A stretch of 64,000 bases of DNA from Desulfosudis oleivorans Hxd3 (GTDB lineage Bacteria > Desulfobacterota > Desulfobacteria > Desulfobacterales > Desulfosudaceae): the NCBI RefSeq assembly GCF_000018405.1, contig NC_009943.1, positions 685,001 to 749,000 on the forward strand, given 5' to 3'. The notes beneath the pieces are model-generated. The model was not told the origin of the DNA and did not search any database. It saw nothing but the letters and a program-made list of their open reading frames with translations. The translations under genes were made by a program, and so were the position numbers. Below, one piece after another: positions 48,876 through 64,000 of the stretch; within the stretch, counting starts at the first letter, position 1, and each line of letters starts with the position of its first letter.

Positions 48876-50723
48876 ATGGGACCTCATGCCGACCCACAGA
48901 CCACAGCCTCTCAACAGGGCCAGACCCTCTGGTCCGGCCTGGTCGCAACGGACCGGGAGACATTCTTTTCTTCATGGCTTGCGATTCAGTGCTCTCTGAT
49001 TCGGGAATGCCGCCAGGCGGTCCTGGTGCTTGGCGAACCCGGTACCGGGCAGTATCTTCCCGTAGCGGCATGGCCTGAAGGCGGAAACGAGGGGGAGCGC
49101 CTGGCCGATGTTCTGGACCAGACCCTGGCCGAGCAGGAAGGTATGCTGGTCGGACTTGAGCCCGTGGAGGGCGTTGCCTGTTACGGACTTGCCTATCCCA
49201 TAAAGGTGGATGGCGAATGTGTGGGCGCCGTGGCCGCCGAGGTGGCGGCAACCCGCGAAGACCGGCTTCGTCCTGCCATGGAGAGCCTTCAGTGGGGGGC
49301 GATCTGGATCGAGAACTGGTACCGCCGGCGCCGCAACCTGGAAGACGGTGATATTCTCACCCGGCTCAAGGGAGCGGTGGATATTCTGGCCGGCGTACTG
49401 GCGGAAACCCGCTTTGACGGTGCCGCCATGGCCTTTGTGACGGCGGTTGCCACGCGGCTCAACTGCGACCGGGTCAGCCTCGGCCTGATTCGGAAAAAAT
49501 TTGCCCATGTGGCGGCGGTCTCCCACTCCGCCGTGGTGGGCCGGAAGATGAACCTGCTTCGGGCCATCGGCGCGGCCATGGACGAGGCGGTTGCCCAGCG
49601 CGCCGAAATTACCTACCCCCCCCCTCCCGAGGCCCAGCCCTTTGTTCTGCGCGATCACGAACACCTGGCCCTCAAGCACGGCACCCAGGCCATCCTTACA
49701 ATACCGCTTCACGGCGGGGACCGGTACTACGGCGCCGTCACCCTGGAGCGACAGAAAGACCGGCCTTTTACCGCCGATGAACTGGCCTATGTTAAAAGCA
49801 TTGCCGCGCTTTCCGGGCCGGCCCTGGAAAGCCGGCACCACCAGGACCGGCCTGTGGTGGTGCTGGCCTTCCAGGCCCTGAAGCGCCAGGCGGCCAGATT
49901 GCTGGGTGCCGGGTACACCGGCAGAAAGGCAGTGGCGGCGGCCCTGCTGCTGACGGCTCTGGTGCTTACCTTTGCCAGGGGGGATTACCGGATTTCAACG
50001 GATATGGTGCTGGAGGGGGCCGTGCAACGATCCGTGGTGGCCCCTTTTGACGGGTTTATCGCGGCGGCACCGGCCCGAGCCGGAGACGTGGTGGTGGCGA
50101 ATGACCTGTTGTGCGCCCTGGACGACCGGGATTTCCGGCTGGACCGAATTCACTGGCTGGGCCGGATGAATCAGTACCGCCGCCAGCTTCAGGACGCCGT
50201 GGCCCGTGGCAACCGGGCCGAAGCCAACATCATTCAGGCCCAGCTGGATCAGGCCGCGGCCCAGCTGGAAATGGCGGAAACCCGTCTTGAACGTGTCGGC
50301 CTGCGAGCCCCCTTTGCCGGCGTGCTGCTCAGCGGCGACCTGACCCAGCGGCTGGGCGGAGCCGTTCGCCAGGGAGAGGAGCTTTTTCAGATCGCCCCCC
50401 TGGACGCCTACCGCGTGATTCTCAAGGTCAATGAACGCCGCATTACCGATGTGGTCGAAGGGCAGTCCGGCACCCTGGTTCTTTCGTCCCTGCCGGAAGA
50501 GACCTATGGTTTTACGGTGACAAAAATTACGCCCGTGACCACCCCCGAGGAAGGCAACAACTATTTTCGCGTGGAAGCCGCTTTGGACTCGCCGTCGCCA
50601 TTGCTTCGTCCGGGCATGGAGGGGGTGGGTAAAATTCACGTGGACCGGCGGCTTCTGGTGAGCATCTGGACCCGGCCTCTTTTTGAATGGGTGCGGATCA
50701 AGATATGGTCCTGGTGGCCCTGA
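48876..50723 (+). CDS. GAF-domain membrane-fusion (HlyD-type) protein
   Basis: The N-terminal ~330 residues are cytoplasmic: a possible degenerate GAF domain (about 25-150) and a clear one (about 165-315, with FVTAVATRLNCDRVSLGLI and ILTIPLHGGDRYYGAVTLE). A TM helix follows at about 347-365 (AAALLLTALVLTFA). Residues about 375-605 are a periplasmic adaptor: VVAPFDGFIAAAPARAGDVV is the first lipoyl half, a coiled coil follows, then LRAPFAGVLLSGDLTQRLG is the second half, and a beta-barrel domain ends with PGMEGVGKIHVDRR. Adaptors of this shape join an inner-membrane exporter to TolC. The start has a weak ribosome binding site. The next gene begins 12 bp downstream and also carries an HlyD part. 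Confidence 0.82.
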   Translation: MGPHADPQTTASQQGQTLWSGLVATDRETFFSSWLAIQCSLIRECRQAVLVLGEPGTGQYLPVAAWPEGGNEGERLADVLDQTLAEQEGMLVGLEPVEGVACYGLAYPIKVDGECVGAVAAEVAATREDRLRPAMESLQWGAIWIENWYRRRRNLEDGDILTRLKGAVDILAGVLAETRFDGAAMAFVTAVATRLNCDRVSLGLIRKKFAHVAAVSHSAVVGRKMNLLRAIGAAMDEAVAQRAEITYPPPPEAQPFVLRDHEHLALKHGTQAILTIPLHGGDRYYGAVTLERQKDRPFTADELAYVKSIAALSGPALESRHHQDRPVVVLAFQALKRQAARLLGAGYTGRKAVAAALLLTALVLTFARGDYRISTDMVLEGAVQRSVVAPFDGFIAAAPARAGDVVVANDLLCALDDRDFRLDRIHWLGRMNQYRRQLQDAVARGNRAEANIIQAQLDQAAAQLEMAETRLERVGLRAPFAGVLLSGDLTQRLGGAVRQGEELFQIAPLDAYRVILKVNERRITDVVEGQSGTLVLSSLPEETYGFTVTKITPVTTPEEGNNYFRVEAALDSPSPLLRPGMEGVGKIHVDRRLLVSIWTRPLFEWVRIKIWSWWP

Positions 50724-50735
50724 CAGGGGGCGTGC

Positions 50736-52883
50736 ATGGGTGAGAAAAATCTTTACAGCAGTTCCTGGTACCGGGTCGCCGGACTCAAACCCTTTCTGCG
50801 GAGCCATGCCCAGATTCACCGCCAGACCTTCAGGAACCGGATTTGGTACGTGCTTCAGGACCATTCCACCGGACGGTTTCACCGGTTTTCGGCCCAGGCC
50901 TATTTTCTCATCGGCCTGATGGACGGCACCCGGACCCTGCAGGAGATCTGGGAGGCGGCCTGTGCTCACCTGAAAGATGACATGCCCACCCAGGAGGAGG
51001 TCATCACCCTGCTGTCTCAGCTGCACCAGGCCGATGTGCTCCAGTCGAACATGGCGCCGGACATCGACCACCTGCTGCATCGAAGCCGCAAGGATCAGCA
51101 AAGCCGGTTCTGGGGCCGCCTTCGGTCTCCGGTGGCGCTGCGTATTCCCCTGATCGACCCCGATCGGTTCCTGGACAGGACCATCGGTGTGGTGGCTCCC
51201 CTGTTTTCCGTTTTCGGGGCTGTGGCCTGGTGCGCCCTGGTGATCACGGCGGTGGTGCTGGCCTTTCTGAACTGGGGCGAGCTGACCCGGAACCTGGCGG
51301 ACCGCGTACTGGCCATGGAAAACCTGGTGCTGCTCTGGCTGATCTATCCCGTGGTCAAGACCTTTCATGAGTTCGGCCATGCCTGGGCCGTGAAACGGTG
51401 GGGAGGCGAGGTTCACGAGATGGGCGTCATGCTGCTGGTGTTCGTGCCGGTGCCCTACGTGGACGCTTCCACGGCCTCGGCCTTCCGGGAAAAACGACGA
51501 AGAATGATCGTGGGGTTTATCGGTATCGGCGTGGAGATGGCCATTGCGGCGCTGGCCATGTTGCTCTGGGTGAACCTGGGGCCCGGCGTGCCGCGGGCCC
51601 TGGCCTTCAATGTCATTCTTATCGCCGGAGTCTCCACGATCTTTTTTAACGGCAACCCCCTGCTTCGTTTTGACGCTTACTATATTCTGGCGGACTACCT
51701 GGAGATTCCCAACCTGGGCGCCCGGGCCAACCGCTACCTGGGTCACCTGGCCCAGCGCTACCTGGTTCGAAACGAAGAGGCCGTCTTTACCCTTGCCGAC
51801 CGCCGGGAAGCGGTGTGGCTTGTCGTTTACGGCATTGCCGCTTTTGTATACAGGATATTTATAAGTATTCGCATCGCCCTGTTCGTGGCGGGAAAGTTCT
51901 TTTTCGTCGGTGTGCTGATTGCCGCATGGGCGCTGGTCGGGCTGGTGGCGGTCCCCCTGTTTCGTCTGGTCCGGACCGTTTTTTCCGATCCCGGGCTTTA
52001 CAGGCGTCGGGTTCGTATCGCGGGCATGGCCGCGGCCGCCGTCTGCCTGGTTGGTCTTTTTGTTTTCGGCGTCCGCCTGCCCGCCACCACCCTGGCCCAG
52101 GGTGTGCTCTGGCCGGGCGAACAATCCCGTGTGCGGGCCGGCACAGACGGTGTGGTTCATCGGTTTGTGGCCCGGCCCGGCGCCATCGTCGGCCGGGGGG
52201 ACCCTCTCCTGATCTGCGAAAATCCGGATATTAAGGGTGAAGAGCGGATTCTGGAGGCCAAGCTGAGGGAGTACCAGGCCCGCCATCTGGTGGCCATGAC
52301 CACGGACCGGACAGAAGAGCGCATTCTTGAAGAAGAGATCGCCCTGGTTGAAAGCGAACTGCGCCACGCCAGGGAGCGACGGGAAGCCCTGGTGGTGAGA
52401 AGCCCGGCGGACGGGCGATTCATTCTGCCCGATGCCGAAGATTATCCCGGCCGTTTTGTACGGCGGGGAGACCCTTTGGGATACGTGGTGGATTCAGGCC
52501 GCATTACCGTGCTGGCGGCCATTCCCCAGGTGCATGTGGGCCGAATCCGGCACAGTGTCCGGTCTGTGTCGGCCCGTGTCGCGGACCGGATTTTCGATCC
52601 GGTTCCGGCCCGTCTCATACGGGAAGTGCCGGCCGCTTCCAGCGACCTGCCCACGGCCGCCTTCTCCCTGGAAGGCGGGGGCCTCTTTGCCCTGGATCCG
52701 AGGGAGCAGATGGGCCGGACCTCTTTTGAAAAACTGTTCTATTTTGAAGTGGCCCTGGATGAGCACCTCAGGGATCGGCTGGGCGCCCGGGTGTTTTTGC
52801 GGTTCGAGCATGAGGCCGAGACCCTGGCCAGCCGGTGGTACAAGGTGTTGCGTCGGGTTTTCTTGAGGGTGTTCAACCGGTGA
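50736..52883 (+). CDS. PqqD-like / M50 metalloprotease / HlyD fusion protein
   Basis: This 715-aa protein has three parts. Residues about 15-105 resemble PqqD-type peptide-binding domains (YVLQDHSTGRFHRFS, then GLMDGTRTLQEIWE). Residues about 150-460 are a multi-pass membrane M50 (site-2-protease-type) domain with HEFGH (His211, Glu212, His215) and the second metal motif NPLLRFDAYY (Asp313). Residues about 485-700 are an HlyD-like periplasmic adaptor with RPGAIVGRGDPLL and a coiled coil. The layout recalls the YydH group of peptide metalloproteases, known from bacteriocin operons with a radical SAM partner. Here it could bind, cleave or pass the giant protein's N-terminus, which is an inference. 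Its stop overlaps the start of the SecA-like gene (TGATG). Confidence 0.85.
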   Translation: MGEKNLYSSSWYRVAGLKPFLRSHAQIHRQTFRNRIWYVLQDHSTGRFHRFSAQAYFLIGLMDGTRTLQEIWEAACAHLKDDMPTQEEVITLLSQLHQADVLQSNMAPDIDHLLHRSRKDQQSRFWGRLRSPVALRIPLIDPDRFLDRTIGVVAPLFSVFGAVAWCALVITAVVLAFLNWGELTRNLADRVLAMENLVLLWLIYPVVKTFHEFGHAWAVKRWGGEVHEMGVMLLVFVPVPYVDASTASAFREKRRRMIVGFIGIGVEMAIAALAMLLWVNLGPGVPRALAFNVILIAGVSTIFFNGNPLLRFDAYYILADYLEIPNLGARANRYLGHLAQRYLVRNEEAVFTLADRREAVWLVVYGIAAFVYRIFISIRIALFVAGKFFFVGVLIAAWALVGLVAVPLFRLVRTVFSDPGLYRRRVRIAGMAAAAVCLVGLFVFGVRLPATTLAQGVLWPGEQSRVRAGTDGVVHRFVARPGAIVGRGDPLLICENPDIKGEERILEAKLREYQARHLVAMTTDRTEERILEEEIALVESELRHARERREALVVRSPADGRFILPDAEDYPGRFVRRGDPLGYVVDSGRITVLAAIPQVHVGRIRHSVRSVSARVADRIFDPVPARLIREVPAASSDLPTAAFSLEGGGLFALDPREQMGRTSFEKLFYFEVALDEHLRDRLGARVFLRFEHEAETLASRWYKVLRRVFLRVFNR

Positions 52884-54889
52884 TGCATCTGAGCGTAGCC
52901 AACTGGCCCAGGGCCGATCACTTTACCCGCCCGGAAAAAAAGGAGCGGCGGCGGACCGTCCTGGACCGCCTGGCCTGGGAGGCCGCCGGCGTGGTGGCGC
53001 GGCCGCTTCTGGAGCGGATGTCACGGTTTTCCCGGGTCGTGAATGCCGCGGCCCTGGCCGGGGAGTCCCTGACCGGTGAAACCGACGAGGCCCTTCGGCA
53101 CCGCAGTGTGAACCTGCGGCGCCGGCTTCGGGTCGACGGGTTTGCCTTTCCCCTGGTGGCCGAGTCCTTTGCTCTGATTCGGGAAGCAGCCGGCCGGGTG
53201 CTGGGCATGCGCCATTTTGACTGCCAGCTGGTGGGCGGCTACGTTATTCTCAGCGGACTGCTGGCGGAGATGGAGACCGGGGAGGGCAAGACCCTGGTGG
53301 CCACCCTGCCCGCCATTACCGCGGCCCTGGCCGGCATTCCCGTTCACGTGATCACGGTAAACGATTACCTGACCCAACGGGATGCCGATCTGATGGGAGC
53401 GCTTTACCGGTTTTTCGGTATCACCGTCGGGTGCGTGATCCACGACAAGACGCCTGCCCAGCGCCGGGCCGCCTATGGTTGCGACGTGACCTACTGTACC
53501 AACAAGGAGGTGGTGTTTGACTACCTGCGGGACCGCATTGTCCTGGGCCACGCACCCGGGGCCCTTCACCTGCATGCCGAACATCTTTATAATCGTTACG
53601 GCAGAAGCGAACAGCTGCTGCTGCGGGGCCTTCACTACGCCATTGTGGACGAGGTGGACAGTGTGCTGGTGGATGAGGCCCGGACCCCCCTGATTATTTC
53701 CCGAAGCGATGCCGGCCAGGGGGAGGAGGCGGAGGCCCGGCAGGCTCTGGCCCTGGCCGGGGAACTGAAAGAATCGGTGCACTACCGCATCGATTATGAG
53801 GTGGACCAGGGCGTAAACACCATCACGGTGACGGAGCAGGGCCGGGAGGCGGTGGGCTTGGCGGCCGCATCCATGGGAACGGCCTGGCAGAGCCCCATCC
53901 GGCGGGAGGAGCTGGTGCGAAAGGCCCTGACGGCCCTTTACCTTTACCGGCTGGATGAGCATTACCTGGTTCAGGACGACAAGGTTCAGATTATTGATGA
54001 GTTTACAGGCCGGGTTATGCCGGACCGCTCCTGGGAGGGGGGGCTGCATCAACTTATCGAAGTCAAGGAGGGCTGCCCGGTGACGGGCCAGCGGGAGACC
54101 GTGGCCCGGATCAGTTACCAGCGGTTCTTCCGGCGGTACCTGAAGCTGGGAGGCATGACCGGCACCGCCAGGGAGATTCGGCGGGAACTCTGGGCCATTT
54201 ACGGGCTGCCGGTGGTGCGCATACCCACCAACCGGCCCCTTCAGCGGCAGATACCACCGGACGAGATTTTCCCTACCCTGGCGGAAAAGTATGCCGCTGT
54301 TGTGCAGCGCGTGGAAGCGCTGTACCGGCAGGAAATCCCGGTGCTTCTCGGTACCCGAACCGTGGCGGTGTCGGAATACTTTAGCGGTCTGCTGGCCCGG
54401 CGCGACATTCCCCACCAGGTACTCAACGCCAAGCAGGACGCCGAAGAGGCCCTGATCGTTTCACGGGCCGGTGAGCCGGGTCGTATCACCATTGCCACCA
54501 ACATGGCCGGCCGGGGCACTGACATCAAGCTGGCCCCTGAGGTCGCCCGGCGTGGCGGACTGCACGTTCTCATGACCGAACGGCACGAGTCCGGCCGCGT
54601 GGACCGTCAGCTGGCCGGCCGATGCGGCCGGCAGGGGGATCCGGGCCGGTGCGAGGGGTTTGTCTCCCTGGAAGATCCCCTTTTCAAGGACGGCTCCCCC
54701 GGGCTGGCCGGTCGCGCGGCGTTGTTGCTGGAAAAAAGAGGGGCCGGGCTCTGGAAACCGCTGGGGAAAAAGGCTATAACAAGGGCACAGCGAAAACTGG
54801 AAAAGGTTCATGCCGGGGCTCGGAAGCGGTTACTGCGATATGACGAGAACCGGAGTGACACCCTTTCTTTTTCCGGAAGAAGTGAATAG
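52883..54889 (+). CDS. SecA-like ATPase, truncated after the motor core (668 aa)
   Basis: The protein follows SecA from NBD1 to the start of the helical scaffold. The Walker A METGEGKT (Lys136), VDEVDSVLVDEARTPLII (Walker B, residues 255-272), a preprotein cross-linking domain (about 220-370), GMTGTAREI, ATNMAGRGTDIKL and GRCGRQGDPG are all present, so ATPase activity is likely. The helical scaffold begins (KAITRAQRKLEKVHAGARKR) but the protein ends about 30 residues later. The rest of a ~850-aa SecA is missing: the helical wing, the two-helix finger and the zinc tail. No continuation lies in another frame before the next gene. It starts at ATG 52883 in TGATG overlap with the M50 gene, so it is part of that operon. 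It is probably not the housekeeping SecA. Confidence 0.88.
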   Translation: MHLSVANWPRADHFTRPEKKERRRTVLDRLAWEAAGVVARPLLERMSRFSRVVNAAALAGESLTGETDEALRHRSVNLRRRLRVDGFAFPLVAESFALIREAAGRVLGMRHFDCQLVGGYVILSGLLAEMETGEGKTLVATLPAITAALAGIPVHVITVNDYLTQRDADLMGALYRFFGITVGCVIHDKTPAQRRAAYGCDVTYCTNKEVVFDYLRDRIVLGHAPGALHLHAEHLYNRYGRSEQLLLRGLHYAIVDEVDSVLVDEARTPLIISRSDAGQGEEAEARQALALAGELKESVHYRIDYEVDQGVNTITVTEQGREAVGLAAASMGTAWQSPIRREELVRKALTALYLYRLDEHYLVQDDKVQIIDEFTGRVMPDRSWEGGLHQLIEVKEGCPVTGQRETVARISYQRFFRRYLKLGGMTGTAREIRRELWAIYGLPVVRIPTNRPLQRQIPPDEIFPTLAEKYAAVVQRVEALYRQEIPVLLGTRTVAVSEYFSGLLARRDIPHQVLNAKQDAEEALIVSRAGEPGRITIATNMAGRGTDIKLAPEVARRGGLHVLMTERHESGRVDRQLAGRCGRQGDPGRCEGFVSLEDPLFKDGSPGLAGRAALLLEKRGAGLWKPLGKKAITRAQRKLEKVHAGARKRLLRYDENRSDTLSFSGRSE

Positions 54890-54959
54890 CCCGGGGATTT
54901 TGTGAAAAGGCATTTTTTGTTTATTCTGAACAATAGGGATCCGGGATAGGAGGCCAGCC

Positions 54960-55697
54960 ATGAAAACAGTTGCCATGATCGGAAGTTTGGTGTGCCTCTG
55001 CATGTTTGCGAGCGGGCATGGGATTGCCGGGGAGGGTGAAGCGGTGCTTCACCGGGGACTGGTGGTACCCAGCGAGGTAGTCGAGATCAGCAGCCAGGTG
55101 CCGGGAATCATCGAGAAGGTGCCCGTGGAACGGGGTGACCGTGTCAAGGCGGGGCAGGTGGTGGCCATGCTCAAGGCGGGCCTGGAAAAGGCCCAGGTTG
55201 ACCTGGCCCTGGCCCGGCTGGATTTTGGCAAAAGAAAAATGCTGCGCAACGAGGAGCTCCACCAGAAACAGCTGATCTCCATTCATGAAAAGGACGAGAT
55301 GGAAACCGAGGTCCGTATCATGGAGATTCAGCTTCAGGAAGCCCAGGCAAATCTGGATCTGCGCACCATTTACAGCCCGGTAAACGGTGTCGTGGTGGAA
55401 CGCCATCTGGGACCGGGCGAGTATATCGGTGAGGGGTCGGTCATGACCATCGCCTGCGTGGACCCGCTCAACGTTGAGGTGGTGGTGCCGGCCGCGCTTT
55501 ACGGCACCATTCAAGAGGGGATGAAGGCCCAGGTTATGCCCGATGATCCGCCGGGCGGGTCATACCAGGGAAGGGTAGTGATCGTGGATGGGGTGATTGA
55601 TGCGGCCAGTGGTACCTTCGGGGTCCGGGTCCGGCTATCCAACCCCGGCTACAGGCTGCCCGCCGGGGTGAACTGCCAGGTGCGGTTCTTTAACTGA
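54960..55697 (+). CDS. Periplasmic adaptor (HlyD/RND membrane-fusion type)
   Basis: This 245-aa protein has a signal peptide (MKTVAMIGSLVCLCMFASGHGIAG) and the core of a membrane-fusion protein: VVPSEVVEISSQVPGIIEKV (first lipoyl half), a short coiled coil (about 70-125), then IYSPVNGVVVERHLGPGEYI (second half) and a beta-barrel. It lacks a long C-terminal domain and is short for the family. AGGAGG lies 10 bases before the start. It sits 70 bp after the SecA-like gene with no terminator between them and is most likely the last gene of the export operon. It is the third HlyD-like part encoded within 7 kb. Confidence 0.85.
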   Translation: MKTVAMIGSLVCLCMFASGHGIAGEGEAVLHRGLVVPSEVVEISSQVPGIIEKVPVERGDRVKAGQVVAMLKAGLEKAQVDLALARLDFGKRKMLRNEELHQKQLISIHEKDEMETEVRIMEIQLQEAQANLDLRTIYSPVNGVVVERHLGPGEYIGEGSVMTIACVDPLNVEVVVPAALYGTIQEGMKAQVMPDDPPGGSYQGRVVIVDGVIDAASGTFGVRVRLSNPGYRLPAGVNCQVRFFN

Positions 55698-55816
55698 CCG
55701 TTGCGCGCATAACATCGGGACTGCCCCGGTGTTTTCTTCTCGATGTACTGAGGGATGCTCTGTGCCTGCCCCGTTCGTCGGTCCCGGAGTCCTTTCCTTG
55801 CTGGACAACATCGCGA

Positions 55817-56539
55817 CTACGCTTCGGGGTGCGGGGTGAATACGTATCCCACTGACCGCATGCTTTTAAAAAATTTCGGTTTTCTGGGGTCGTCCTCGAA
55901 ATATTTTCGAAAGCGCACAATGAAGTTGTCCACGGTGCGGGTGGAGGGATCGCCGGTATAGCCCCAGCCGATCTCCAGCAGGGTTTTTCTGGCCAGGGGC
56001 CGGTTCTGGTGGGTGATAAAGAGTTTTAACAGCTTGACCTCCTGGTCGGTGAGTTGAATAGTGCCCTGGCGGCAGACCGCCTGGGACAGTGAAAAATCGA
56101 TTTGGTTGTTGCCGAAGGTGTAGCGGGTGGGTACCAGACTTTCCGCGCTTTTCTTGCTCCAGGAAGCCCGGGTCAGGAGACGGTCCACGCGCAGCAGAAA
56201 TTCTTCCAGGTCAAAGGGCTTGGTAAGATAGTCGTCCACCCCGTAGGTCAAGCCCTTTCGCTTATCGATCGGCTCTTTTTTGGCCGACAGGATAAGGATG
56301 GGGATCTTTTCATCCTCCAGCCGAATATGCTGCAACACGGAAAGCCCATCCATGCCCGGCAGCATGATGTCCAGCACGATCAGGTCCGGGTTGTGCGCCT
56401 TCCAGGCCGCCAGGCCGCGGCTGCCGTTTTCGGCAACCATCACATCGTATCCTTTCAGGGAGAGGTTCAGTTGCAGCCCCTGGGCGATATGGGCTTCATC
56501 CTCAATAATCAGTATTTGTTTTCTGTCAGGGCTGTTCAT
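55817..56539 (-). CDS. OmpR/PhoB-family response regulator
   Basis: The N-terminal receiver domain starts with ILIIEDE and has the phosphorylated aspartate at Asp57 (LIVLDIMLPGMDG) and the conserved Lys of KPFDLEEF. The C-terminal winged-helix DNA-binding domain (about 140-238) ends with DNFIVRFRKYFEDDP, then VGYVF. It overlaps the kinase gene by 4 bp (56536-56539), so the two form a coupled pair. The target genes are unknown; the export genes next door, read convergently, are one possibility. Confidence 0.93.
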   Translation of the reverse strand: MNSPDRKQILIIEDEAHIAQGLQLNLSLKGYDVMVAENGSRGLAAWKAHNPDLIVLDIMLPGMDGLSVLQHIRLEDEKIPILILSAKKEPIDKRKGLTYGVDDYLTKPFDLEEFLLRVDRLLTRASWSKKSAESLVPTRYTFGNNQIDFSLSQAVCRQGTIQLTDQEVKLLKLFITHQNRPLARKTLLEIGWGYTGDPSTRTVDNFIVRFRKYFEDDPRKPKFFKSMRSVGYVFTPHPEA

Positions 56540-57507
56540 GCCGGATCCTTTGGTTTTGTCACCAGGGGCAGGGAGACGACAAACACGGACCCCGTTTCAC
56601 CGGGACGGTCTTTCACCCATATTTTCCCCTTGTGCAGGCGCACGATGTTGGCCACCAGGTAGAGGCCCAGGCCGCTTCCCTTGGCTGACCGGTCATCGGC
56701 CCGGCCGGCCTGGTAGAACTTTTTAAAGATGTTTTTCTGCTCCGACGGGTCAATGCCGATGCCGTTGTCCGCCACGCGGACCAGTACTTTGTTCTTTTTC
56801 CGTTCAAAGGTGATATGGATTTCCGGTGTGCCGGCGCTGTTGTATTTGATGGCGTTGGTGGAAAGGTTCATCAGCAGCATCTCAAACAGGTGGGGGTTGA
56901 GGCGGCACACGAAAGATCCATCAGGCGGTGCCGAGACGGTGATGGCGCAGTTTTTGAACAGGTGGCGGGTTTTCTGGTAAAACTGCCGGATCAGAAAAAC
57001 CAGGTCGGTTTCGACAAAATCCCCGGCATAGGTCCGGCCTTCGATTTCCGCCAGGTCCAGAATACTGCCGATGGTGGACTCCAGGCGGTTGACATCAGAG
57101 ATCATAGTCTGAATGTGCTTTACCTGTTCTTCCCTGGGCAGGTCATGTTTTAAAAAGGTCGCCAGAAAGAGGCGCAGGGAGGTGACCGGTGTTTTCAGTT
57201 CGTGGGTAAAGTTGTTGATGAAGTTGCGTTGCAGTCGGAAGAGCTGAAAGGTTTTCAGGTTGTAAATAAAAATAGTGAAAAGACCCAGCAGGATGATCCC
57301 CACCAGGATGGACAGGACGGTGATCACCACCCATGTGTGGGAGGCCAGAATGTCCACCGCGTTCAGGTCGAACCGGTCCACCAGCCGGTTGAGTCCCGCC
57401 CGCACCTTGATGTACCAGTAGATGTAGAGAAACAGGGAAAATCCCAGGGCCACGCAGGAGGAGACAAAGATCAGGATCAGGGTGATCAGCCATTTGGTTC
57501 GGTTCAT
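56536..57507 (-). CDS. Sensor histidine kinase
   Basis: Two TM helices (about 7-30 and 60-82) flank a short periplasmic loop of about 30 residues. The dimerisation domain carries the H-box NFTHELKTPVTSL with His102. The ATP-binding domain has the N-box LLMNLSTNAIKYN, the G1 box VADNGIGIDPSEQ, the F-box IFKKFYQ and the G2 box GSGLGLYLV. Its 323 aa are short, with no HAMP or PAS domain visible. It is transcribed ahead of the response regulator, with a 112-bp gap to the next gene upstream. Confidence 0.93.
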   Translation of the reverse strand: MNRTKWLITLILIFVSSCVALGFSLFLYIYWYIKVRAGLNRLVDRFDLNAVDILASHTWVVITVLSILVGIILLGLFTIFIYNLKTFQLFRLQRNFINNFTHELKTPVTSLRLFLATFLKHDLPREEQVKHIQTMISDVNRLESTIGSILDLAEIEGRTYAGDFVETDLVFLIRQFYQKTRHLFKNCAITVSAPPDGSFVCRLNPHLFEMLLMNLSTNAIKYNSAGTPEIHITFERKKNKVLVRVADNGIGIDPSEQKNIFKKFYQAGRADDRSAKGSGLGLYLVANIVRLHKGKIWVKDRPGETGSVFVVSLPLVTKPKDPA

Positions 57508-57619
57508 GTGGACGTCTTCTCTTTATGGCTGCCGGAACAACAGCCGCAGCTGATGGTTTTTAAAACACTTTTATCGTCACGATATTAAAGCGGTGTGGCT
57601 GTATGTCAAGCAACAATCG

Positions 57620-58099
57620 TCATGGCGCATCAATCAGCCGGTTCAGGATCAGGCCGTAAAACGATGCGCCGGCAGTCGTGTAGTACCAGCCGAGATGGCT
57701 CATGCATCCGCTGCACACCGCCACCTGCCAGGCGTAGCCGTCAAACCAGGTGAATTCAAGGGTCGGTGAACCGGCATGACCACATCCCGGCGCCCCGCGA
57801 AAACACCCGATCTCAAAAATCATCCCCCCGGGGTTGGCAAAAACATGGGAGTGGCGGCCATTGACGGTTGTTTGCTCTTCCCGTCGCGTGATGGGGTGCA
57901 GGCACCGGAAACAGCGCAGGGCCTCCTGCTTTTCCGGGGCTTTTTCATCCTCGCTGCCGGTGCGGGTGGCGGCCGACGGCGGCGTCAGCAGGTTGTTTTC
58001 AATTTCTGTTTTCAGGCACCGTAAAGGCACGCGGCCGATGATCGCGGGGAAACGGCTGTGTTCAGTGAAAGCGGTGGTATGGTGATCATGGCGTTGCAT
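57620..58099 (-). CDS. Single-domain CULT (cereblon-type) protein
   Basis: Residues about 60-155 match the CULT domain of cereblon: two zinc-binding pairs, Cys63/Cys66 (CFRC) and Cys129/Cys132 (CSGC), and the three tryptophans of the aromatic cage, Trp118, Trp124 and Trp138, in EFTWFDGYAW and SHLGWYY. Human cereblon has the same spacing (SWFPGYAW, then CxxC, then SHIGW). The His of cereblon EHSW is Phe116 here. CULT domains bind uracil-like and glutarimide ligands such as thalidomide, and single-domain bacterial versions are known (Magnetospirillum). The natural role in bacteria is unknown. The first 58 residues are polar and lack a signal peptide. It follows mltG by 24 bp and is likely cotranscribed with it. 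The start has a weak ribosome binding site, so the N-terminus is uncertain. Confidence 0.85.
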   Translation of the reverse strand: MQRHDHHTTAFTEHSRFPAIIGRVPLRCLKTEIENNLLTPPSAATRTGSEDEKAPEKQEALRCFRCLHPITRREEQTTVNGRHSHVFANPGGMIFEIGCFRGAPGCGHAGSPTLEFTWFDGYAWQVAVCSGCMSHLGWYYTTAGASFYGLILNRLIDAP

Positions 58100-58123
58100 T
58101 TTATCGTCCGAACCTGCTTTGGT

Positions 58124-59140
58124 CTATTTTTTACGCCGCCTTCCCAGTTGATATGTCTGAACGGCCCGGTTGTGCTCTGCAAGGGTGGCGGAAAAGTGGT
58201 GGGTGCCGTCGTTTTTTGCCACAAAATAGAGATAGCCGGTTTGGGCCGGAAAAAGGGCCGCGTAGAGCGATTCTTTGCCCGGGCTGGCAATGGGCCCCGG
58301 CGGAAGACCCCGAATCCGGTAGGTGTTGTAAGGGGTTTCCTGTCGCAGATGGGCACGGGTGATATTGCCGTCAAAGTCGGGAATGCCGTATATCACCGTG
58401 GGGTCGCTCTCCAGCCGCATTCTTTTTGCCAGCCGGTTGTGGAACACCGACGCGATCACGGGCCGTTCGTCCGGGTGGGCCGTCTCTTTTTCAATGATCG
58501 ACGCCAGGGTCACGATCTGGTGGACCGAAAATCCCTGTTGTGTGGCGCGTGTTTTCCACTCGTCGGTGAATACGGCGTTAAAGCGGTCCACCATGGCGGT
58601 CGCCATTTTTCGGGGAGTGGCGGTTGCCGGAAAATAGTAGGTCTCGGGAAACAGGTATCCTTCCAATGTGTCGGCCGGAATGCCCATCTCTTTTGCAAGC
58701 CCGCTGTCCCTGGCGGCAGCGGCAAAAGCCTCGCTTGTGGCCAGCCCGGCCTGGGCCACTGCGCCGGCAATCTGGTCAATGGCGAAACCTTCGGGAATGG
58801 TTACCCGGTAGAGCACCACGTCCCCGGAAAAGAGCCGGTCCAGGATGTCCGACGGCGGCATGGCCGCCGACACCCGGTATTCTCCTGCCTTGATGACGTG
58901 TCTGCCCCGGGCTGTTCGGGCAAAGAGCCGGAACAGATCCGGGTGATGGATAATCCCGGCCCGGTGCAGCAGGGTCGCCACGGCGTTGATGCCCATGCCC
59001 GGGGCAACTACCAGTACCTGTTCATTGCGGGCACCGGGATCGGCGGGTGTGGCGCCGTACCGAAGCAGACCGAACCATGCCCCTGCGCCGGCGACGGCCA
59101 GTATGACAACAAGAATAAGGATGCGTTTGGGTGCCGGCAT
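58124..59140 (-). CDS. mltG: Endolytic transglycosylase MltG
   Basis: MltG cleaves nascent peptidoglycan strands at the inner membrane. The protein has an N-terminal TM helix (about 6-26), a LysM-like subdomain (VVAPGMGINAVATLL) and the YceG catalytic domain. The catalytic Glu is Glu217 in LASIIEKET, matching Glu218 of E. coli MltG. The conserved TPYNTYRIRGLPPGPI and NPG-type SPGKESLYAAL regions are present, and the protein ends in the usual FVAKNDGTHHFSATLAEHN. I chose ATG 59140, preceded by AGGA; an upstream start (59224) would add 28 residues with no clear binding site. Its 338 aa are normal for the family. Confidence 0.95.
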   Translation of the reverse strand: MPAPKRILILVVILAVAGAGAWFGLLRYGATPADPGARNEQVLVVAPGMGINAVATLLHRAGIIHHPDLFRLFARTARGRHVIKAGEYRVSAAMPPSDILDRLFSGDVVLYRVTIPEGFAIDQIAGAVAQAGLATSEAFAAAARDSGLAKEMGIPADTLEGYLFPETYYFPATATPRKMATAMVDRFNAVFTDEWKTRATQQGFSVHQIVTLASIIEKETAHPDERPVIASVFHNRLAKRMRLESDPTVIYGIPDFDGNITRAHLRQETPYNTYRIRGLPPGPIASPGKESLYAALFPAQTGYLYFVAKNDGTHHFSATLAEHNRAVQTYQLGRRRKK

Positions 59141-59275
59141 TTGTCCTGCTTTCAACCATGGGTAAACGTGTACGGTAAGGTGACGGGCACTTGTCACCGG
59201 AGTCGCTCCTGCCAAGTTTACCATTGCCCACGATTCGGCCGCAAGGCAAAACAGGTGGGCCGGTGGATACGCCTA

Positions 59276-59305
59276 TTGACACTCACCCCCCGGCTGGCAT
59301 AGAGT
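59276..59305 (+). promoter_or_regulatory. Candidate promoter for the acyl-CoA dehydrogenase-pyrK operon
   Basis: TTGACA at 59276-59281 is followed by an 18-base spacer and TAGAGT at 59300-59305 (four of six consensus positions). It lies 61 bp before the GTG start. Confidence 0.5.
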
Positions 59306-59365
59306 CAATTTTTCCGGAACGGTTCTTTAATTTTAATAAAAACTTTTCAAAAAAAGAGGTGTGAT

Positions 59366-60526
59366 GTGAACCCACTTTCCGGTCCCCCCTGCCAGGCCTA
59401 TTTTTCGGCGGAGCATAACATGCTGCGCAGCGCGTTGCGGGAGTTTGTCAAAAAAGAGATCACGCCCTTCGTGGATGAGTGGGAGCGAGCCGGAGAGTTC
59501 CCCCGGGACCTTTACAGGAAGATGGGTGATCTGGGATTTCTCGGCATCGGTTTTCCGGAGGATTTCGGCGGCAGCGGCGGGGATATTTTTTCCACCATCG
59601 TTTTAAATGAGGAGATGATGCGGTGCGGCGCCGCCGGTATCGTGGCCGGCCTGGGCTCCCACGGCATCGGCCTGCCGCCCATTGCCATGAAGGGTACCCC
59701 GGACCAGGTCGACCGCTTTGTGCGGCCGGTGCTGGCCGGAGAAAAAATCGCGGCCCTGGGCATCACCGAGCCCGGTGGCGGGTCGGACGTGGCCAACCTT
59801 CAGACCACGGCGGTGCGGGACGGCGATGACTATATCGTCAACGGCTCAAAGACTTTTATCACCAGCGGCATTCGGGCCGATCAGCTCACCTGTGCGGTCC
59901 GCACCGGCGACAAGGGGGCCCACGGCATCAGTTTTCTGGTCATTGAGGCCGACACGCCGGGCTATGCCACGGGCAGAAAGCTTGAAAAGATGGGGTGGCT
60001 GGCCTCGGACACCGGCGAAATCTTTTTTGACAACTGCCGGGTGCCGGTGGCCAACCGTATCGGCGAAGAGAACTCCGGGTTTTACACCATCATGGAGAAC
60101 TTCCAGATGGAACGGCTTCACCTCTGTGTCATGGCCAACATGACGGCCCAGTTGGCCCTGGAGGAGTCTATTAAATACGCGAAGCAGCGGCAGGCCTTTG
60201 GCAAGCCCCTCAAGGGGTTCCAGGTGACCCGCCACAAGCTGGTGGACATGGCCACCCTGGTGGAGGCCAGCCGGGAGTTCACCTACCGGGTGGCGGCAAA
60301 AATGAACGCCGGCCAAAACCAGGTCAAGGAGATCTCCATGGCCAAGAATTTTGCCTGCCAGGTCAGCGACAAGGTGACCTATGACGCGGTCCAGATTTTC
60401 GGTGGCTACGGCTACATGAAAGAATACATGGTGGAGCGGCTCTACCGGGACAACCGGATACTTTCCATCGGCGGGGGAACCACCGAGATCATGAAAGAGA
60501 TCATCGCCAATTTTGTGGTGGGGTAG
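59366..60526 (+). CDS. Acyl-CoA dehydrogenase (LCAD/IVD-like)
   Basis: This flavoenzyme oxidises an acyl-CoA to the 2-enoyl-CoA and passes electrons to ETF. The three family domains are present, with the FAD/substrate stretch LGITEPGGGSDV (about 133-144) and the CoA-binding middle domain. The C-terminal catalytic Glu of MCAD-type enzymes is replaced (SIGGGTTEI in place of IYEGTSEI). A Glu at position 249 (MERLHL) sits where LCAD and isovaleryl-CoA dehydrogenase have theirs. The end, GGGTTEIMKEI, also resembles LCAD. GTG 59366 is preceded by AGAGG. The pyrK-like gene follows after 6 bp. Confidence 0.9.
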   Translation: MNPLSGPPCQAYFSAEHNMLRSALREFVKKEITPFVDEWERAGEFPRDLYRKMGDLGFLGIGFPEDFGGSGGDIFSTIVLNEEMMRCGAAGIVAGLGSHGIGLPPIAMKGTPDQVDRFVRPVLAGEKIAALGITEPGGGSDVANLQTTAVRDGDDYIVNGSKTFITSGIRADQLTCAVRTGDKGAHGISFLVIEADTPGYATGRKLEKMGWLASDTGEIFFDNCRVPVANRIGEENSGFYTIMENFQMERLHLCVMANMTAQLALEESIKYAKQRQAFGKPLKGFQVTRHKLVDMATLVEASREFTYRVAAKMNAGQNQVKEISMAKNFACQVSDKVTYDAVQIFGGYGYMKEYMVERLYRDNRILSIGGGTTEIMKEIIANFVVG

Positions 60527-60532
60527 CAAACG

Positions 60533-61345
60533 ATGATGCAGCACAACGCAAGGGTTCTTGAAAACCGCCGGATTAACGACACCTGCCTGCAACTGGGCCT
60601 CTCCTGCCCGGCATCATGGGCCGCGGCCGTTCCCGGCCAGTTTGTCATGCTTCGTCTGCCTGCCGCCGGCATTTCCGCCACTTTTCTGCCCCGGCCTTTT
60701 TCCATTTACCGGGTGACCGGCGACGGCCGGCTGGATATTCTTTACCGGGTGGTGGGCCGGGCCACTTGCGCCATGGCCGCGCTGGGTCCCGGCGATGGCC
60801 TGAATGTACTGGGGCCTCTGGGCAACGGGTTTTCATTCGGCCCTGATCTGAAGCAGGCGTTTCTGGTGGCCGGCGGCATCGGTGTGCCGCCGGTGGCTTT
60901 TCTGGCGCAGCACCTGGCCGGGCGGAAGGGCACGGCGGTGGACTGCACCGTGTTTCTGGGCGGGGCCACGGCTTCTGATATTTTGTGTGAAGCGGATTTC
61001 TCCTCCCTCGGCATGACGGTCTGCATTGCCACGGAAGACGGCAGCGCCGGCACAAAAGGCCTGGTCACCGACATTCTGGCCCCGGCCCTTGAAAACCAGG
61101 CCCCGGACGCGGTGTTTGCCTGCGGGCCCCCTGGCATGCTGCGGGCCGTGGGCAGCATGGCGACAACCCGCAAGGTGGCCTGCCAGGTCTCCATTGAAAC
61201 CATGATGGCCTGCGGCATGGGCGCCTGTATGGGATGTGCCGTCCGGTCCGCTGATAATCAGGCGGCTTATAAACATGCCTGTACCGACGGCCCGGTGTTT
61301 GATTGCAGCCGCATCGATCTGTGCGGCCCGCTTCTTTCCGGCTGA
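60533..61345 (+). CDS. pyrK: PyrK-like dihydroorotate dehydrogenase electron-transfer subunit
   Basis: The protein has the ferredoxin-reductase layout of PyrK. It starts with a beta-barrel FAD domain (RPFSIY at 54-59), followed by an NAD-binding domain (LVAGGIGVPPVAFLA) ending in the CGPPGML motif. Four Cys (227, 232, 235, 250) in CGMGACMGC and KHAC hold the [2Fe-2S] cluster. In most genomes pyrK lies next to pyrD, but no pyrD is present here. It follows the acyl-CoA dehydrogenase closely, so it might instead serve as an NADH-linked electron carrier for it. Which role it has cannot be told from the sequence. Confidence 0.85.
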   Translation: MMQHNARVLENRRINDTCLQLGLSCPASWAAAVPGQFVMLRLPAAGISATFLPRPFSIYRVTGDGRLDILYRVVGRATCAMAALGPGDGLNVLGPLGNGFSFGPDLKQAFLVAGGIGVPPVAFLAQHLAGRKGTAVDCTVFLGGATASDILCEADFSSLGMTVCIATEDGSAGTKGLVTDILAPALENQAPDAVFACGPPGMLRAVGSMATTRKVACQVSIETMMACGMGACMGCAVRSADNQAAYKHACTDGPVFDCSRIDLCGPLLSG

Positions 61346-61455
61346 GGGCGGTCCAGTGGACCACCGGGTTCCAGCAGGGCATTGGCGGCGATATTCGTTT
61401 TTATTACAGCAGATTAAGAAACCGGTCCGCTGGGCGTGATTTTTTTGAAAACATG

Positions 61456-61485
61456 TTGACTTGTTCACGCCCCCTATGCTAGTAA
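61456..61485 (+). promoter_or_regulatory. Candidate promoter for the ATP synthase F0 genes
   Basis: TTGACT at 61456-61461 and TAGTAA at 61480-61485, with an 18-base spacer, lie 25 bp before the first atp gene. The stretch between the pyrK stop and this point (61346-61455) shows no gene. Confidence 0.4.
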
Positions 61486-61510
61486 TACCGTTTTAATTTG
61501 ATAATTTGGC

Positions 61511-61750
61511 ATGAAAGAAGACACACGACGATCTTTAAGAGAGCTCGCTTATTACAGCAGTCTGGGGCTCTCCATTGTCCTGGCCATATTTATCGGGCTT
61601 TTTGTCGGCGTGTGGCTCGACAGTAAATTCGGCACCCAGCCGGTGTGGACCTTTGTATTTCTGGGGCTGGGTATTGCCGCCGGGTTTCGCAACATTTTTC
61701 ATGCCATGCGGAAACTGCAGAAAGCGGATAAGGCAGACAAGGGTGAATAG
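61511..61750 (+). CDS. atpZ: AtpZ/AtpI-type small membrane protein of the ATP synthase operon
   Basis: This 79-aa protein has two TM helices (about 18-35 and 45-62) joined by a short loop with VWLDSKFGTQP, the usual pattern of AtpZ (AtpI_AtpZ family). The family is thought to help c-ring assembly or magnesium/calcium transport at the synthase. It overlaps the next gene by 8 bp. Confidence 0.85.
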   Translation: MKEDTRRSLRELAYYSSLGLSIVLAIFIGLFVGVWLDSKFGTQPVWTFVFLGLGIAAGFRNIFHAMRKLQKADKADKGE

Positions 61751-62138
61751 CAACGTCAGCATTGAGCAGCACATTTTAAATTTTGTGACCCGCAGCAACT
61801 GGGTCCTGTTTTTCTGCCTGGCCGTGCCGGGCGCGATATACCTTCCCCGGCTGGTTTCCGGGTTTATCTGCGGGGCACTGATTGTGACGATCAATTTTCA
61901 TCTGCTTGTCCGGACCCTGAGAAACGCGTTTGTGCCGGACCGCGTGGTTTCCAAGAATGCTATTCTGGCCAAGTATTATTTACGGTTTTTTGTCAGCGGC
62001 CTGCTGCTGTTTGTGCTGATCGCCGGTCGCCTGGTGGACCCCCTGGGGTTGATCGCCGGGCTCTCCGTTGTGGTGGCAAGCATGTTCCTGGCAACCCTTT
62101 TTGCGATAAAAAAACTCATCTTCAAGGAGGCGATATAA
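61743..62138 (+). CDS. atpI: ATP synthase subunit I (AtpI-like)
   Basis: This protein has four hydrophobic helices and no other clear motif, which is usual for the poorly conserved subunit I, an assembly helper of the c-ring. I chose GTG 61743, overlapping the AtpZ stop by 8 bp with AAGG upstream; it gives 131 aa. Earlier starts in this frame would lie deep inside atpZ. The gene ends with AAGGAGG, the binding site for atpB. Confidence 0.75.
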   Translation: MNSNVSIEQHILNFVTRSNWVLFFCLAVPGAIYLPRLVSGFICGALIVTINFHLLVRTLRNAFVPDRVVSKNAILAKYYLRFFVSGLLLFVLIAGRLVDPLGLIAGLSVVVASMFLATLFAIKKLIFKEAI

Positions 62139-62139
62139 G

Positions 62140-62829
62140 GTGGAGCATCCCTATCTGTTTTTCGTAAAGCTGTTTGAGGCCCTGGGGTTTGAGCATTTTG
62201 CTCATACCAGCGTACACATTATTTACACATGGGTGGTCATGGCCCTGCTGATCACGCTGGGTGTTCTGGGGGCGCGCAACATTCAGATCGTGCCCACGAA
62301 AATGCAGAATTTTCTCGAGGTGTTGATCTCCGGCATCGAAGAGTTCATGGTGAGCGTTACCGGCGAAGAGGGCCGGTGGTTTTTCCCGCTGGCAGGGACC
62401 ATTGCTATCTTCATTGCCGTTTCCAACCTGATCGGCCTGGTGCCGGGCTTTTTCCCGCCCACGGCCAGTATTAACACCCCCCTGGCCTGTGCTATCGTGG
62501 TGTTCGTGTTTACCCATTTTATCGGCATCAAGTATCATGGCCCCAAGTATATCAAACACTTTCTCGGGCCGGTCTGGTGGCTGGCGCCCCTGATCTTTCC
62601 CATTGAAATCATCGGCCATCTGGCCCGGGTGCTCTCCCTGACCTTCCGTCTCTTTGGCAACATGATGGGCCATGAGTCGGTGCTGGTGATTCTGTTCATG
62701 CTGGGCGGCGCCTTTTTCGCGCCCCTGCCCATCATGGCCCTGGGTATTTTTGTGGCCTTTGTGCAGGCATTCGTGTTTTTCCTGCTCTCCGTCATGTATT
62801 TCGCCGGCGCCATGGAGCATGCCCACTGA
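62140..62829 (+). CDS. atpB: F-type ATP synthase subunit a
   Basis: Subunit a forms the proton or sodium half-channels beside the c-ring. The essential Arg is Arg170 in LSLTFRLFGNMMGHE, and the conserved region of the last helices (FVAFVQAFVFFLLSVMYFAGA) is complete. The GTG start at 62140 is preceded by AAGGAGG (62124-62130). Its 229 aa are typical. Confidence 0.95.
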   Translation: MEHPYLFFVKLFEALGFEHFAHTSVHIIYTWVVMALLITLGVLGARNIQIVPTKMQNFLEVLISGIEEFMVSVTGEEGRWFFPLAGTIAIFIAVSNLIGLVPGFFPPTASINTPLACAIVVFVFTHFIGIKYHGPKYIKHFLGPVWWLAPLIFPIEIIGHLARVLSLTFRLFGNMMGHESVLVILFMLGGAFFAPLPIMALGIFVAFVQAFVFFLLSVMYFAGAMEHAH

Positions 62830-62923
62830 TTATTTGAAGTCTGTGAACAACAACTCGGTTGTTTTCATATCGGCAAAAGGAAGAAGCAATTATCAATCGT
62901 TATTTTGAAGGAGGAAAGAGGAA

Positions 62924-63214
62924 ATGGAAGCTGAAGCCTTAAAATTTTTTATCGCGTGTGTGACAGCGGCTGGTTTTGGAATCGCCATCGCGGCGTTTGG
63001 TTGCGGCATCGGCCAGGGTCTTGGCCTGAAGGCGGCGGCCGAAGGCGTTGCCCGCAATCCCGAAGCATCCGGTAAGATCACCGTGACCATGCTCATCGGT
63101 CTGGCCATGATCGAGTCGCTCTGTATTTACGCGCTGGTCGTTGCCCTGATCCTGATCTTTGCGTCCCCCATGACGGCAACGGTTACCGGTCTGCTGACAG
63201 GTGCCGGTCACTAA
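62924..63214 (+). CDS. atpE: F-type ATP synthase subunit c
   Basis: This is a 96-aa hairpin of two TM helices with the loop ARNPEA. The ion-binding Glu64 lies in MIESLCIY in helix 2. Gln31 (GIGQG) in helix 1, Ser65 and Tyr69 occupy the positions of the sodium-binding residues of the Ilyobacter c-ring, but the usual Pro of helix 1 is Cys27 and Thr67 is Leu66, so coupling ion is uncertain. It has a strong GGAGG site (AAGGAGGAAAG) before the ATG. It ends with a terminator, so subunit b and F1 are transcribed elsewhere. Confidence 0.95.
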
Positions 63215-63242
63215 GCAGTAAGCAGTAAAGTTTTAAAAACAA

Positions 63243-63273
63243 AAAAGGGCCGCGCGTTTCGCGCGGCCCTTTT
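63243..63273 (+). terminator. Intrinsic terminator after atpE
   Basis: A perfect 14-bp stem, AAAAGGGCCGCGCG and its complement (63243-63256 with 63260-63273), has a TTT loop. The T-rich end can serve transcription from either side. It ends the F0 gene block. Confidence 0.92.
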
Positions 63274-63285
63274 GCGTTTGTTCGT

Positions 63286-63528
63286 GTACTTTTCTTTAGA
63301 AGAAAAGTACCAAAAGAATCGCCCCTGGCAGCTTGGCCACGCCAAAGCGTGGCTTCCCTGGCTCAAATAATTTTTCGGCGCGAAAATGAACTCACTCGCC
63401 TTCGGCTCGTTCAAACAGCATTGCCGCTTTTTCCGAAAAATCATTCTCGCTTCAGCGGCGCTGCAATGGGGTATACAGCAGGTATGCGTCCCTTTTTGCG
63501 GGTGACACTGGCAGCTCGTCTGCCAGTG
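63286..63528. repeat. Palindromic intergenic element(s)
   Basis: GTACTTTTCTT and its complement (63286-63296 with 63300-63310, loop TAG) form a perfect 11-bp stem. About 195 bp further on, CACTGGCAG and CTGCCAGTG (63506-63514 with 63520-63528) form a second one. Sequences like the first palindrome followed by CCAAAAGAA occur scattered in many proteobacterial genomes, so a dispersed repeat is likely. Confidence 0.55.
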
Positions 63529-63671
63529 CCCGAAGGGCAAGAGGCCTATTAGATTATCCTGGGCAATGCGAACAAATCAACGTGCTGCCTCTTGTGCTGC
63601 GCACCTCGGCCCTTTTGCGTTTTATGGATAAGAGGCATTGAGGAGAGAAAATAATCCGAAATCAAAATCCG

Positions 63672-63780
63672 CTTCGTGTTCTTCCAAATCTTCGTGATCT
63701 TCGTGTTGAAAAACCCTGTCGACGCCATCGGCCGGCCGCTTTTTAACACGAAGAACGCGAAGGGCACGAAGCACACGAAG
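63672..63780. repeat. Inverted CACGAAG-repeat element
   Basis: The left arm (63672-63707) has CTTCGTG three times and the right arm (63745-63780) has CACGAAG three times plus one altered copy (CGCGAAG), so the arms are inverted to each other and separated by about 37 bp. Elements of this look are found between genes in several environmental bacteria. It sits 8 bp past the uvrA stop. Confidence 0.6.
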
Positions 63781-63787
63781 GAGGAAG

Positions 63788-64000
63788 TCACAGAACTTTT
63801 TTCAGGAACTCTCCGGTGTAGGATCCCTTGATCCGGGCAAGCGCTTCGGGCGGGCCGCATCCCACCACCCGGCCGCCGCCGTCTCCGCCTTCGGGGCCCA
63901 GGTCGATAATGTAGTCCGCGTGTTTGATCACGTCCAGGTTGTGCTCGATGACGATCACGGTGTTACCGGCATCCACCAGCCGGTCCAGCACCCCCAGCAG
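63788..64000 (-). CDS. uvrA: UvrABC excinuclease subunit A, C-terminal end (partial)
   Basis: The last ~70 residues of UvrA are seen. [20 protein letters not shown] holds the D-loop and H-loop region of the second ABC ATPase, followed by [17 protein letters not shown] and the usual ending [11 protein letters not shown]. The 5' part lies beyond the window's right edge; the frame is open to base 64000. The GTG at 63991 is internal and not a start. Confidence 0.95.

Follow-up and report, generated by a model that had tools for sequence, protein, structure and literature searches.

The window, a stretch of 64,000 nucleotides from Desulfosudis oleivorans Hxd3, encodes on its reverse strand a protein of the bacterial single-domain CULT family, as the preliminary description of this DNA had proposed. 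Sequence searches, the predicted fold, and the zinc-binding and cage residues all agree on this assignment, and both the zinc site and the tryptophan cage are complete. The protein is a genuine but ordinary addition to the published family (Lupas et al. 2015), and does not represent a new kind. We tentatively propose that it functions as a zinc-stabilised, cytoplasmic binding protein that reads cyclic imides, a reading to which we assign a probability of about 0.45. The invariant residue His85 and the co-conserved pair Cys99/Cys106 are possibly new details.

The CULT domain is preceded by ~58 N-terminal residues, which are weakly kept among the homologues and in which no hydrophobic segment was found. 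No Pfam family matched the protein above its cut-off, and NCBIfam gave no match. With this poorly conserved N-terminus and no other family above cut-off, the protein counts as single-domain, made up of CULT alone. An Rfam scan of positions 52000-64000 of the window returned no matches.

A phmmer search gave an end-to-end alignment of residues 59-159 to MsCI4, the cereblon isoform 4 of Magnetospirillum gryphiswaldense, with an E-value of 1.3e-25, and a best E-value of 6e-12 for the cereblons. A family profile built from 59 bacterial relatives recovered MsCI4 at 2e-34 to 2e-32 and cereblons at 1e-22 to 2e-19, compared with only 0.013 for Yippee-like 5 and 1.6 for MsrB. In turn, the Hxd3 protein scored 170 bits (E 3e-50) against a CULT profile from which it and its closest relative had been excluded; judged by sequence, its similarity to the CULT family is far above chance level. 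The Yippee/Mis18 proteins (PF03226), distant β-tent relatives, show a weak similarity near the second CxxC motif, and an assignment to this family was rejected at 19.7 bits, below the Pfam curated cut-off of 26.6. A clearly better match to Yippee/MSS4, which would have spoken against a CULT protein, was therefore not found, and this alternative is refuted by the far better profile scores of MsCI4 and cereblon over Yippee-like 5.

Structure prediction of residues 57-159 by AlphaFold2 (AF2) yielded a model with a mean pLDDT of 95.6 and a pTM of 0.87, which presents the predicted β-tent fold with its inserted hairpin. Structural similarity search with Foldseek and VIA-align ranked the MsCI4 entries first and cereblon next. 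Superposition by VIA-align gave a Z-score of ~20 and an RMSD of 1.0-1.5 Å at ~44% identity for MsCI4, and a Z-score of ~18 at 33% identity for cereblon.

Table 1. Features of the CULT locus, in positions of the window; residue numbers refer to the CULT protein, and conservation to 122 bacterial homologues
Feature	Position	Strand	Remarks
CULT protein ORF	57620..58099	-	intact, ATG start, 159 aa; homologous ORF in 121 further loci
CULT domain, residues 59-159 + stop codon	57620..57925	-	phmmer, AF2, Foldseek/VIA-align
First zinc CxxC, C63/C66	57902..57913	-	conserved in 122/122
N89-P90 of cage-closing hairpin (= MsCI4 N50-P51)	57830..57835	-	N 100%, P 99% conserved; phmmer alignment
Cys99 to Cys106 pair, β-hairpin mouth	57782..57805	-	co-conservation; AF2 model
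F116 (human His378 / MsCI4 Phe77 position)	57752..57754	-	residue counts and backbone contact
Tri-Trp cage W118, W124, W138	57686..57748	-	100% conserved
Second zinc CxxC, C129/C132	57704..57715	-	100% conserved
Y140 (MsCI4 Tyr101 position)	57680..57682	-	Phe 77/122, Tyr 44/122
mltG	58124..59224	-	24 bp upstream of CULT gene; PF02618 1e-94, TIGR00247 above cut-off
Promoter-like TTGACA-16-TAATAT between CULT gene and kinase	57582..57609	-	consensus scan 10/12; pattern match only
Sensor histidine kinase	56536..57507	-	112 bp downstream of CULT gene; HisKA, HATPase_c
OmpR-type response regulator, overlaps kinase gene	55817..56539	-	Response_reg, Trans_reg_C

The two zinc-binding CxxC pairs and the three cage tryptophans match those of cereblon in order and spacing, as had been noticed previously. 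According to the phmmer alignment and published equivalences (PMC8900816), W118, W124 and W138 correspond to W79, W85 and W99 of MsCI4 and to W380, W386 and W400 of the human protein, and the alignment also places the NP loop in register with MsCI4. Residue counts over the 122 homologues revealed that G92, F119, F147 and H85 are likewise invariant where aligned. The alignment confirmed that the position of cereblon His378 is occupied by a phenylalanine, F116. The suggestion that this substitution may change the ligand preference did not survive the comparison: phenylalanine is the bacterial norm (97 of the 122 homologues, with Trp in 12 and His in 6) and is present in MsCI4, which binds both thalidomide and uridine. 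Moreover, the glutarimide is contacted via the backbones of Phe77/His378 and Trp79/Trp380, with hydrogen bonding (PMC8900816). Because phenylalanine is the commonest residue and the contact runs through the backbone, F116 is ordinary and by itself unlikely to alter the choice of ring, though it may still influence the form of the pocket rim. The members found with His belong to the divergent sequences of the phylum sample, most of which also lack the cysteine pair. At the position of Y140, the hydroxyl group of MsCI4 Tyr101 provides a third hydrogen bond to the ligand (PMC8900816).

Both Cys99 and Cys106 are kept in 101 of the 122 homologues (Fisher p 6e-4, uncorrected for phylogeny). They correspond to positions 43 and 50 of the AF2 model, at the ends of the predicted strands 38-44 and 50-57. 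In the phmmer alignment, MsCI4 keeps the first cysteine and lacks the second. Together with the invariant His85, the pair could form a disulfide, metal or redox element. His85 itself, invariant in bacteria, is presumably absent from human cereblon (CRBN).

Of 291 genomes sampled from the order, 181 carry the CULT gene, nearly always in single copy and usually solitary; among the 173 of good quality the number is 116. It occurs in all three genomes of the family and in 40 of 395 genomes of a phylum-wide sample. A contig scan with the single sequence recovered two close relatives alone, and the larger set came from the genome search. Phages, plasmids and viral contigs yielded no mobile or viral copies, the viral scan being for one peptide pattern.

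Genomic neighbourhoods were compared over the 122 loci, with approximate gene calls from a simple codon-usage script. No recurrent neighbour emerged apart from lineage-specific synteny and common two-component genes, which occur at the background rate. The longest CULT ORFs were tested for fusions, and none carried another recognisable domain. A stand-alone binding protein fits this absence of fixed neighbours and recognised fusions, which in turn give no lead to a partner. As an example of synteny, in one lineage (L075, L078, L079 and L073) the CULT gene lies directly 3' of hemC and uroporphyrinogen-III methyltransferase-like genes, with an overlap of ~41 bases in three loci as called.

The preliminary description had placed the gene in a likely operon with mltG, linking it, perhaps by chance, to cell-wall work. 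Locally this holds: mltG, the identity of which is firm, is read in the same direction and ends 24 bp before the CULT gene, and the two genes are probably co-transcribed at the Hxd3 locus. However, a survey of mltG-CULT neighbourhoods revealed no conservation, with mltG adjacent to the CULT gene in 0 of the 121 other loci; the family's two other genomes do not have it beside the gene either. In one distant locus (L156), mltG lies two genes off on the opposite strand. The adjacency thus looks accidental, and a role in cell-wall remodelling with MltG as operon partner is extremely unlikely. Similar reasoning applies to the two-component system encoded downstream, of which the CULT protein might be an input or regulator. 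In the closest relative (L085, CULT identity 69%), an orthologue of the kinase (60% identity) follows the CULT gene at a gap of 114 bp, against 112 bp in Hxd3, and the gene upstream of CULT is divergent. A different kinase lies upstream of CULT in the other family member, and further kinases abut the gene in L086, L059, L104 and L182. This linkage, promising in the closest relatives, was rejected once the enlarged sample was compared with the background: histidine kinases make up 6/238 of the genes beside CULT, a share no higher than that at the other positions of these loci (40/1140). In addition, a promoter-like site of its own lies ahead of the kinase gene and would allow transcription separately from CULT. 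Coupling to this system is therefore very unlikely.

Two further explanations concern the chemistry of the domain. An enzyme similar to the β-tent relatives MsrB and GFA, acting via His85 or Cys99/Cys106, would suit the presence of His85 in 122 of 122 homologues and of the cysteine pair in 101 of 122; against it, MsCI4 retains the histidine without the second cysteine, and the cited literature reports no catalysis by a CULT domain, making such an activity highly unlikely. It is possible, albeit doubtful, that the protein senses or carries a free metabolite, namely uracil, uridine or a cyclic ureide or imide resembling them, and signals to a partner through ligand-induced folding. MsCI4 binds thalidomide and uridine at low micromolar concentrations, folds upon ligand binding, and is stabilised by uridine, unlike thymidine or cytidine (PMC4449219); the authors of the family preferred a widespread ligand over a linear motif. 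This documented binding of uracil and uridine suits a metabolite sensor equally well as an imide reader. On the other hand, no pyrimidine genes recur beside the CULT genes at the 122 loci, and the C-terminal cyclic imides that cereblon recognises as a degron offer a physiological alternative (PMC12117711). No natural ligand of bacterial CULT proteins is established in the cited literature, and no protease or ligase partner is linked to the gene; both points count against the imide-reader view.

Taking cyclic-imide reading as the preferred function, we propose by analogy with MsCI4 that the side chains of W118, W124 and W138 would cage a cyclic imide of the glutarimide, succinimide, dihydrouracil or uracil type, with hydrogen bonds from the F116 and W118 backbones and, probably, from the hydroxyl group of Y140. 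The Hxd3 protein would accordingly be expected, from the same analogy, to bind glutarimide and uracil-type rings and to fold upon the ligand. In the cell, it might recognise damaged proteins or peptides by their C-terminal cyclic imides (cyclised Asn or Gln), in the manner of eukaryotic cereblon, which is a weaker extrapolation. It would do so with no ubiquitin ligase attached, perhaps through a downstream partner, and the gene would act alone, outside any mltG cell-wall unit. It is unlikely that CULT in this order represents a ubiquitin-free C-terminal cyclic-imide reader ancestral to the degron recognition of cereblon, in which Cys99/Cys106 would be a redox or metal element specific to the lineage.

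Elsewhere in the window, a cluster on the forward strand (48876-55697) encodes a GAF+HlyD protein, a protein with PqqD, M50-like and HlyD segments, a SecA-like ATPase and a second HlyD-type adaptor. The PqqD-containing protein resembles the model of the daptide intramembrane metalloprotease below cut-off, and the SecA-like ATPase (684 aa) has no more than a trace of a wing/scaffold domain. The cluster is possibly a dedicated peptide or protein export system or a RiPP-related one. At positions 62924-63214 (forward strand), an ATP synthase c-subunit (PF00137) carries a Gln in its first helix and an E-S...Y pattern in its second; we take this combination to resemble the signature for sodium binding in Na+-type c-subunits.

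Thalidomide-type drugs and degraders use cereblon as their main receptor, and bacteria lack its ubiquitin ligase. What a CULT protein does in bacteria is a moderately interesting question, which the Hxd3 locus alone does not settle. As the gene is frequent in the order (181/291) and mostly single-copy, knocking it out in a culturable sulfate reducer could prove informative.

Compared to eukaryotic CRBN, the Hxd3 protein lacks the LON domain, for which neither Pfam nor NCBIfam gave a match in its 159 residues, and the DDB1-binding region, and hence is not a cereblon proper; it also carries Phe for His378 and Gly for His353. Nevertheless, it shares the fold, the zinc site and the cage with the CULT (thalidomide-binding) domain of CRBN. 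The closest known counterpart is MsCI4 (MGR_0879; PDB 4V2Y), a solved protein that likewise consists of a single CULT domain. The two differ at Gly91 (Ala52 in MsCI4), at Val126 (Ile in MsCI4) and at Cys106, the second conserved cysteine, which is Leu in MsCI4, and they have in common the zinc-binding cysteines, the tri-Trp cage, the Phe at the His378 position and the Tyr at position 101.
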